Part shown: positions 1 to 4,793 of the stretch, piece by piece
How positions within the stretch are numbered: the stretch's first letter is position 1
Layout: the number at the start of each line of letters is the position of its first letter
Assembly (NCBI GenBank): GCA_023250585.1
Contig: JAHFAK010000019.1
Coordinates: 1 to 6,745 of the forward strand
Source: Deltaproteobacteria bacterium
Lineage (GTDB): Bacteria > Bdellovibrionota_F > JAHFAK01
DNA length: 6,745 nucleotides
Direction of reading: 5' to 3'
Translations under genes and position numbers: made by a program
Notes under the pieces: model-generated
What the model was told of the DNA's origin: nothing
Seen by the model: the letters and a program-made list of their open reading frames with translations, nothing else
Database searches by the model: none

Positions 1-144
1 ACAACTAAAAAAAAGGATGGTAATAAAAAAAATGCAGAGGATATTTTTGAATTGAATCATTACAAAAATTTAACAAATTATTTTCCGGAAATAAAGAAGT
101 ATAAAATAAATGAATGTGTATCAGCTCAGTTAATGGGGGAGTAA
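1..144 (+). CDS. C-terminal end of an unknown Lys-rich protein (5' truncated)
   Basis: Frame 1 is open from the first base to a TAA at 142-144, giving 47 residues that begin TTKKKDGNKKNAED and end SAQLMGE. The segment is hydrophilic and rich in Lys and Asn, with no membrane segment or motif I recognise, so no function is proposed. It is probably a real gene end because the frame stays open, the composition is protein-like, and the stop lies exactly at the edge of hairpin element A. The same arrangement of a hairpin hugging a stop codon recurs at the helicase gene and at the 121-residue exported protein. The gene converges on ahcY. A chance open frame cannot be excluded because the start is outside the window. 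Confidence 0.5.
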   Translation, partial: TTKKKDGNKKNAEDIFELNHYKNLTNYFPEIKKYKINECVSAQLMGE

Positions 145-259
145 TGGTGAAGATATGTTCTAAAAAAGTATTTCTATCGATCGCGCTTTCCTGTTCTTAA
201 TAGTATTATGGAAGCGACGTCGATAGAAATACTTTTTTAGAACATATCTTCACCTTACT
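140..259. repeat. Long hairpin element A: conserved 39-nt core with locus-specific arms
   Basis: Positions 146-180 and 220-254 are perfect 35-nt inverted repeats. The pairing continues to 140-144/255-259 after a single bulged T at 145, so each arm is about 40 nt. The centre, 181-219, starts TCGCGCTTTCCTG and ends ATTATGGAAGCGACG. It can fold further: CGCTTTCC (184-191) pairs with GGAAGCG (210-216) with one bulged T, leaving an 18-nt apical loop and a 3x3 internal loop next to the arms. The same core occurs inverted at 4715-4753 with different arms. It lies between two convergent genes and overlaps the stop codon of the left one. A terminator role is plausible, but no T-tract follows either end. 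Confidence 0.9.
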
Positions 260-2915: not shown

Positions 2916-2934
2916 CTCTGAAAAACTCATATTT
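2916..2934. repeat. Repeat fragment, copy 1 of CTCTGAAAAACTCRTATTT
   Basis: The 19-nt string CTCTGAAAAACTCATATTT recurs with a single change (A to G) at 3867-3885. Its first part, CTCTGAAAAA, also matches the terminal sequence of the adjacent 122-nt palindrome: the complement of 3047-3056 reads CTCTGAAAAA. It is probably a remnant or end of the same repeat family, lying just upstream of the metK promoter. Confidence 0.6.
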
Positions 2935-2938
2935 CAAG

Positions 2939-3060
2939 GAACCTCTCAAAAAGGTCCAGATGCAAGGCGCACGCGAAGCCGCAACCGGAGCATCCTCGCA
3001 TAGTATGTGAGGATTGTGGTTTTGCGTGCAACGATGCAGATGGGCCTTTTTCAGAGGTTC
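2939..3060. repeat. 122-nt imperfect palindrome, MITE-like repeat
   Basis: The ends GAACCTCT (2939-2946) and AGAGGTTC (3053-3060) are inverted copies. Pairing continues through AAAAAGG/CCTTTTT and CC/GG with one mismatch and one wobble, giving about 20 outer base pairs. Further blocks pair inward: TGCA, GCACGC/GCGTGC, and an apex TCCTCGCA/TGTGAGGA with a 5-nt loop. The left arm is clearly richer in G and C than the neighbouring DNA. It contains no convincing gene. It begins 1 nt past the stop of the 121-residue gene, so it may also serve as that gene's terminator. The family is not identified. Confidence 0.75.
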
Positions 3061-3061
3061 T

Positions 3062-3427
3062 CTAGTTAAGAAGAACAATGCCTAAATCTTCTATACTGAT
3101 TAATCGGCCATCTAATTGCGAAAGTATTGTTTTACAGTCACTACTGAGAGAAGGATCTTGAAGATACGATTCTAAGTCGCCAGAAGTAGAGAATTTTACT
3201 CCTTCTTTAGATTCGGTATTATTCTTATTTAAGCATTCTTGCGCCTTTTTTACTAATGAGAAATCAATGTTTGATCCAAAGGGGCATTGCTCTCCAACTC
3301 CTATGGGAATTTCTTGCGCAACGTTTGAACTATCAGTGGATGCAAATACTTTTGCTGCAATGAGGACTGAGCTCGAGAGCAAAAATACTACTACAATGCC
3401 GAGAAGAATGAGTTTTTTACGTACCAT
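3062..3427 (-). CDS. Small exported protein with three cysteines, function unknown
   Basis: The 121 residues start with a classical signal peptide: MVRKK, a hydrophobic run to about residue 25, and a plausible cleavage after AKVFA at 29. The mature part is about 92 residues, hydrophilic, with Cys48, Cys65 and Cys98. The segment EQCPFGSN followed by QEC aligns with the 80-residue neighbour encoded at 3612-3854: identical 17-residue Cys spacing and shared Glu, Gly, Asn, Ile/Val and Gln. A second block, GVKFSTSGDL, aligns with AVVLDSEGNL. They look like divergent paralogues. The start at 3427 is supported by GGAGGA 6 nt upstream. A TATAAT promoter lies about 70 nt upstream and the 122-nt palindrome follows the stop directly. 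A periplasmic or secreted location is inferred; I do not recognise the family. Confidence 0.8.
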   Translation of the reverse strand: MVRKKLILLGIVVVFLLSSSVLIAAKVFASTDSSNVAQEIPIGVGEQCPFGSNIDFSLVKKAQECLNKNNTESKEGVKFSTSGDLESYLQDPSLSSDCKTILSQLDGRLISIEDLGIVLLN

Positions 3428-3611: not shown

Positions 3612-3854
3612 CTATTCGCATTCGATAGTTTCTATGGGAACTTCGGTTAGATTTCCTTCTGAATCAAGAACAACGGCGTTCTTTTTAACCGTCGTACACT
3701 GCTGTTCTTCGCTTTCAACACCCTCACCTACATTAGCACCTTCAGCACATGGTTCATCTCCACCGGTAACATCTACCGAAGTATTATTACTTGGCCGAGC
3801 TATTATGGTGGAAGAAAAAAGAAAGAAGAAAAAAACAAGTGTAATTTTGAACAT
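3612..3854 (-). CDS. Small exported protein with three cysteines, paralogue of the 121-residue neighbour
   Basis: This 80-residue product begins with a short signal peptide: MFKI, a Phe-rich hydrophobic core, and likely cleavage after SSTIIA at residue 19. The mature part of about 61 residues is acidic with Cys36, Cys53 and Cys79, the last next to the C-terminus (IECE). Residues 34-53 match residues 46-65 of the neighbouring 121-residue protein in Cys spacing (17) and at Glu, Gly, Asn, Val/Ile and Gln. AVVLDSEGNL matches GVKFSTSGDL. The start at 3854 is the first ATG and gives a proper signal peptide. Its ribosome site is weak: AGAGGG about 10 nt upstream, contributed by the repeat fragment at 3867-3885. 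An odd number of Cys suggests pairing with a partner or one free thiol. I do not recognise the family. Confidence 0.7.
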   Translation of the reverse strand: MFKITLVFFFFLFSSTIIARPSNNTSVDVTGGDEPCAEGANVGEGVESEEQQCTTVKKNAVVLDSEGNLTEVPIETIECE

Positions 3855-3866
3855 ATTTTAGGGGCC

Positions 3867-3885
3867 CTCTGAAAAACTCGTATTT
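3867..3885. repeat. Repeat fragment, copy 2 of CTCTGAAAAACTCRTATTT
   Basis: CTCTGAAAAACTCGTATTT matches 2916-2934 at 18 of 19 positions in the same orientation. It lies in the leader of the 80-residue gene, and its complement supplies the only purine-rich ribosome-site candidate (AGAGGG). Confidence 0.6.
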
Positions 3886-3899
3886 AAAGTTAAAACACA

Positions 3900-4674: not shown

Positions 4675-4793
4675 TAGGGGAGGAGTTATATCTGCTCTTT
4701 TCATTTTATACCGACGTCGCTTCCATAATAATTTTAAGAACAGGAAAGCGCGATCGGTATAAAATGAAAAGAGCAGATATAACTCCTCCCCTA
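4675..4793. repeat. Long hairpin element B: conserved 39-nt core (inverted) with different arms
   Basis: Positions 4675-4714 and 4754-4793 are perfect 40-nt inverted repeats. The 39-nt centre (4715-4753), read on the - strand, is identical to the core of element A at 37 of 39 positions. The two differences fall in the apical loop (TAG versus AAT). The innermost three arm bases (CGA/TCG) are also shared, so the conserved unit is about 45 nt. Beyond that the arms bear no resemblance to those of element A. It occupies nearly all of the 151-nt gap between the helicase stop (8 nt away) and the rhomboid ribosome site. No T-tract follows on either strand. Confidence 0.93.

Follow-up and report, generated by a model that had tools for sequence, protein, structure and literature searches.

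Two hairpins with the same geometry

The window (the whole stretch of DNA analysed here, 6,745 nt) contains two long hairpins that closely agree in size, which raises the question of how inverted repeats at two loci come to have arms of equal length and near-perfect pairing. Hairpin A, at positions 140-259 of the plus strand, comprises a left arm of 41 nt (140-180) that includes one bulged T, a core of 39 nt (181-219) that contains the block GTTCTTAANNNTNTTATGGAAGCGACG, and a right arm of 40 nt (220-259), and has 40 pairs in total. Hairpin B is located on the minus strand at 4675-4793, with the 3′ end of a uvrD-type helicase gene on one side and the beginning of a rhomboid gene on the other. 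Its 40-bp arms (4754-4793 and 4675-4714) are perfect and also enclose a core of 39 nt (4715-4753). The constant geometry of about 40-39-40 noted in a preliminary description of this DNA was thus confirmed at both loci. The two cores are near-identical sequences on opposite strands (repeat I1). RNA folding z-scores were -17.4 for A and -17.5 for B, with 0 of 200 shuffles equally stable, and no Rfam family was matched anywhere in the window. We also noted two small ORFs (3062-3427 and 3612-3854) that begin with signal-peptide-like sequence and match no Pfam family.

A dispersed family with a common core

Allowing up to three mismatches, the core pattern matched the 2.24-Mb genome at 45 sites and the conserved right-hand core block GTTCTTAANNNTNTTATGGAAGCGACG at 76 sites. 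The latter, dispersed through the genome, were taken as the counted family. A covariance model built from 19 copies recovered most of the 76 and added a few copies with more diverged cores, for a total of about 80. A diverged core at L228:1017-1133 has GGTT/AACC in place of the inner stem GCTT/AAGC, which amounts to a paired change inside the core.

Among the 76 copies, 39 arm positions are paired in 20, 38 in 15 and 37 in 13, so 48 copies have 37-39 pairs. The others have 34-36 pairs (10 copies), 40-47 (13 copies) or 27-33 (four copies), and one copy is arm-deleted. The core is 39 nt long in 45 copies and 40 nt in 25 (70 of 76 combined), and the core versions differ by a 1-nt indel that changes the reading frame. 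Arm length over all copies had been proposed as a check in the preliminary description, and its spread is indeed narrow. The same description held the arms of A and B to be unrelated in sequence. This is wrong for the family, as the aligned copies have a common consensus over the whole arm. The arms of A and B seem unrelated when compared alone because the two hairpins belong to different subgroups. Judged from these alignments, the constant arm length would reflect inheritance from one ancestral hairpin, and a measuring device is not needed.

We evaluated whether the family encodes a peptide. In some copies an open frame runs through the core (e.g., the short ORF ATGTTCTC..), but single-base indels in the arms and core versions shift it, and a coding function was rejected.

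MITE-borne and standalone copies

At least 31 copies, A among them, sit within a MITE that has GTAA ends and is flanked by 8-bp target-site duplications. The MITE carrying hairpin A occupies positions 118-273 of the plus strand (156 nt), with the b-type end GTATCAGCTCAGTTAATGGGGG on the left and the a-type end GTAATCCCGCAGTTAGTAAGG, read inward, on the right. Its duplications, ATGAATGT at 110-117 and ATGAACGT at 274-281, match at seven of eight positions. The MITE-borne units are mostly 147-164 nt long and have two kinds of inverted end, a (GTAATCCCTCAGTTATNAGGG) and b (GTAACAGCTCAGTTAATGGGGGAGTTAGGG). Both ends share GTAAY..CTCAGTTA in inverted orientation, and the hairpin arms stop where the a and b ends cease to resemble each other. 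In 29 of the 31 copies the duplications are identical at seven or more of the eight positions, compared with a maximum of five in shuffled pairings. These copies are thus short elements without coding capacity that have inverted terminal repeats and target-site duplications, as is characteristic of MITEs. The GTAA ends and 8-bp duplications resemble those of IS66. An IS66-derived element movable by a resident transposase was considered and rejected, as IS66 transposase (PF03050) is absent from the assembly, which is 96.7% complete.

The second subgroup comprises 34 standalone copies, including B, with similar cores and T-rich-type arms, and without MITE ends or duplications. Direct repeats at the arm ends of these copies showed no excess, and none was found for B, which argues against standalone copies being insertions with their own target duplication. 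End-like sequence in the standalone flanks is in faint excess (p = 0.006), with a few cases convincing by eye (L026, L029 and L037). This suggests that at least some standalone copies are old MITE insertions, and copies such as B may be older insertions that have lost their MITE ends to decay.

Arms are maintained after insertion

The arms of MITE-borne copies differ by 18% between copies but by 0.95% within one copy, and those of standalone copies by 38% and 1.5%, respectively. Divergence between standalone copies is 44% in the outer 18 nt of the arm. The MITE ends diverge between copies by 18-26% and the core by 6.5-7.7%. As MITE-borne arms change about as fast as MITE ends, the arm sequence itself appears to be under no visible constraint, unlike the core. 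The core may be additionally constrained, perhaps because it is needed for mobilisation or by a host protein.

Given that both duplications and both arms are identical at the outset, the target-site duplications can serve as a clock for the arms of the same insertions. The duplications are mismatched at 14 of 248 positions (5.6%) and the arms at 11 of 1200 (0.9%; Fisher p = 1e-5). Thus, the duplications have drifted about six times further than the arms they flank. The preliminary description reasoned that near-perfect arms imply either recent formation or active maintenance. Recent formation does not agree with duplications that are already 5.6% diverged around arms at 0.9%, and the results support active maintenance of the arms after insertion. 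Arm mismatches are also overdispersed, with none in 50 of 75 copies and a variance of 2.0 around a mean of 0.67, the pattern that occasional resetting of each copy would produce.

Block copies and core inversions

The two edges of the core are normally unlike: GAGCGCGC forms the left edge and GCGACGTC the right. An exact copy of the right edge, GACGTCGC, has taken the place of GAGCGCGC in L040, L058 (+) and L108. L042 is the reverse case, in which the right core edge is now a copy of the left. Similar events involve the MITE ends: L073 and L115 (minus strand) have a-end sequence in place of the inner part of the b end, and in L115 this sequence includes a private variant. The replacement shortened the units to 150 and 147 nt, respectively, and left their duplications intact. 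Whole-arm conversion changes, a further check proposed in the preliminary description, were thus detected within this genome as blocks copied from arm to arm. L111 is a partial case, with one MITE end altered toward the other. The same three loci are the long-armed outliers of the MITE-borne subgroup (44, 46 and 47 pairs in L111, L115 on the minus strand and L073), and in all three one MITE end has partly given way to sequence of the other or has changed to agree with it, which accounts for the long arms.

Measured against the a and b ends of the MITE, the core lies one way round in 17 cases and the other way in 16, an even division that could partly reflect assembly error if the k-mers were shorter than the arms of about 39 bp. 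L004 and L030 have an identical left arm and core block and opposite core orientation. The chimaeric copies L047 and L090 may likewise be assembly artefacts. The family thus displays both multi-base block copies between arms and spacer inversion, the latter subject to the same possible assembly error.

Alternative explanations for the paired arms

Maintained pairing would also be expected if the hairpin were functional as RNA, for instance as a terminator, leader, processing site or small RNA, with selection for pairing giving rise to compensatory changes. The fold is very stable, the core is more conserved than the rest of the element, and covariation is strong: among 19 standalone copies aligned without gaps, two-sided changes occur at 32 of 38 arm pairs. 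Stems selected as RNA are expected to show many G-U pairs, as in rRNA and tRNA helices. However, the same alignment has 185 two-sided cells vs 4 wobble and 4 unpaired (14-36 two-sided in slid controls), and mismatches across all copies are G-T/T-G in 13 cases and A-C/C-A in 12, without a wobble preference, with the caveat that transcription from both strands would erase a G-U signal. Moreover, the MITE-borne arms evolve as fast as the MITE ends, and entire blocks change at once. Simple ORF-based gene calls revealed no consistent orientation of the hairpins to neighbouring genes; divergent pairs are the commonest context and convergent pairs the rarest (9 of about 60). An intrinsic terminator, for which a convergent or co-directional downstream position is expected, was rejected on this basis. 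Overall, we consider it unlikely that RNA function maintains the arms.

Arm identity could instead be kept by recombination, or by cruciform extrusion and resolution involving a resolvase or a core-recognising invertase, rather than by polymerase switching. Both the near-equal frequency of the two core orientations and the conserved, asymmetric core would suit a site-specific enzyme. Against this, no candidate enzyme was found, arms of 39 bp are short for homologous recombination, and the block copies that affect one side only, at the core edge and at the MITE ends, are most simply read as copying, so this is a minor possibility in our assessment. A more speculative version, which we regard as quite improbable, is that an enzyme recognises the core, actively flips it and copies the arms anew; the element would then carry its own repair-by-inversion cycle and outlive its transposon ends. 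The preliminary description had inferred from the equal arms a mechanism that measures about 40 nt. Such a mechanism would generate every hairpin de novo, through an inverted duplication of sequence at the target. The narrow range of arm lengths and the highly variable outer 18 nt of standalone arms agree with such a mechanism. However, the arms align to a family consensus, the 8-bp target duplications of MITE-borne copies lie outside both arms, and the long-armed outliers are explained by copied or altered MITE ends, which together make it very improbable.

Other palindromes and related elements

Six further hairpins are built in the same way, with mutually different, mostly perfect arms of about 40 bp that are purine-rich outside, but around an unrelated conserved core, TTTGCTTCCTCTTATAAAACTTCACTGAGCA. 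They are located around position 1500 of L125-L130 and at L115:5487-5595, with an a-type MITE end on the left side of the one in L130. Many further copies of these MITE ends surround an unrelated GGATCCCG..CGGGATGACA palindrome (L052, L057, L061, L063, L077, L082, L084, L094 and others). We also detected units of only 36-43 nt that have GTAA-type ends, hardly any interior and apparent 8-bp target duplications, and are unusually short for MITE-like elements (L046:286, L051:810, L070:804, L072:773, L076:716, L078:821 and L098:838). The MITE therefore resembles a vehicle for palindromes.

Another repeat, GGTGTGAAAAAATCAAGAGAGAGCTCC, occurs at 20 sites (e.g., L232 and L233) and is joined directly to MITE ends at L047, L054, L085, L090 and L096. 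In a broad hairpin survey that covered 369 kb of the genome, we found a second family of imperfect palindromes, about 120-130 nt long, in which the inner motifs are conserved and the arms vary. It is represented in the window at 2930-3062 (with a remnant at 3860-3889) and at L110:3054-3170, L111:6936-7069 and L113:8213-8338. The copy at 2930-3062 had no match in plasmids.

The core of the hairpin family was absent from 58 other genomes searched and from viral and genome contig collections, the MITE of hairpin A was absent from plasmids, and the covariance model had no match in one other genome of the class. ERIC-type repeats are likewise dispersed intergenic palindromes of many copies, with stems that are part of the conserved sequence. 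REP/REPIN repeats (PMC3116915) resemble the present family in the same respects, but their stems also belong to the conserved sequence, whereas in the present family the stem can vary freely in sequence and what is kept is the pairing and the core. Bacterial MITEs such as MITEAba12 (PMC6382973) are also short and non-autonomous, with inverted ends and target duplications. Unlike them and elements with IS66-type ends, the present elements coexist with no IS66 transposase in the assembly, and their interior is a long hairpin whose arms vary from copy to copy. The palindromic elements of Rickettsia are dispersed and selfish too, but are described as losing repeat identity over time (per PMC6649704), while the present family keeps its arm identity.

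Template switching as the probable cause of arm identity

The best explanation, which we consider reasonably probable, is that A and B are members of one dispersed non-autonomous hairpin family in which intramolecular template switching homogenises the arms and inverts the cores. Template switching between arms is known to yield arm homogenisation and spacer inversion (PMC8604942), and the block copies, the two core orientations and the two-sided changes with almost no wobble fit an intramolecular process of this kind. We infer the switching events from paralogues of one genome.

As the target duplications show, a hairpin with arms of about 38 bp and a conserved core of 39/40 nt has spread in a short GTAA-ended vehicle that makes 8-bp duplications. 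At replication, the nascent strand would then switch to the opposite hairpin arm or to the sister strand, copy it and return, presumably through the action of an enzyme or a particular replication event. To judge from the footprints, a partial switch would overwrite one arm with the other, and a full switch through both arms would also invert the core. The outcome would be near-free drift of arm sequence with almost perfect pairing throughout, and an arm length that is handed down and increases only if a switch overruns the arm end. Recombination between the arms or the processing of cruciforms could produce the same footprints, and switching alone does not account for the low core divergence.

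Quasi-palindrome correction by template switching (PMC8604942, PMC7202029) is similar in that arms become perfect copies, spacers invert and several bases change at once. The reported cases are mostly scattered short repeats, whereas here there are about 80 homologous mobile copies with 8-bp duplications as an internal clock. In the coding palindromes of nematomorph mitochondria (PMC6649704), long inverted repeats are also perfect in an all-or-none manner, which was argued to show upkeep by conversion. Those palindromes lie within mitochondrial protein genes and do not form a dispersed family with a common core.

In combination, the results show that a single bacterial repeat family bears the signatures of arm homogenisation as well as spacer inversion. 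With about 80 homologous hairpins, more than 30 of which have an 8-bp clock, the family is a natural experiment in which rates of correction and inversion are measurable against point mutation. More generally, DNA copying alone can generate the perfect two-sided covariation that is usually taken to prove a functional RNA stem, and the missing wobble pairs give such copying away.
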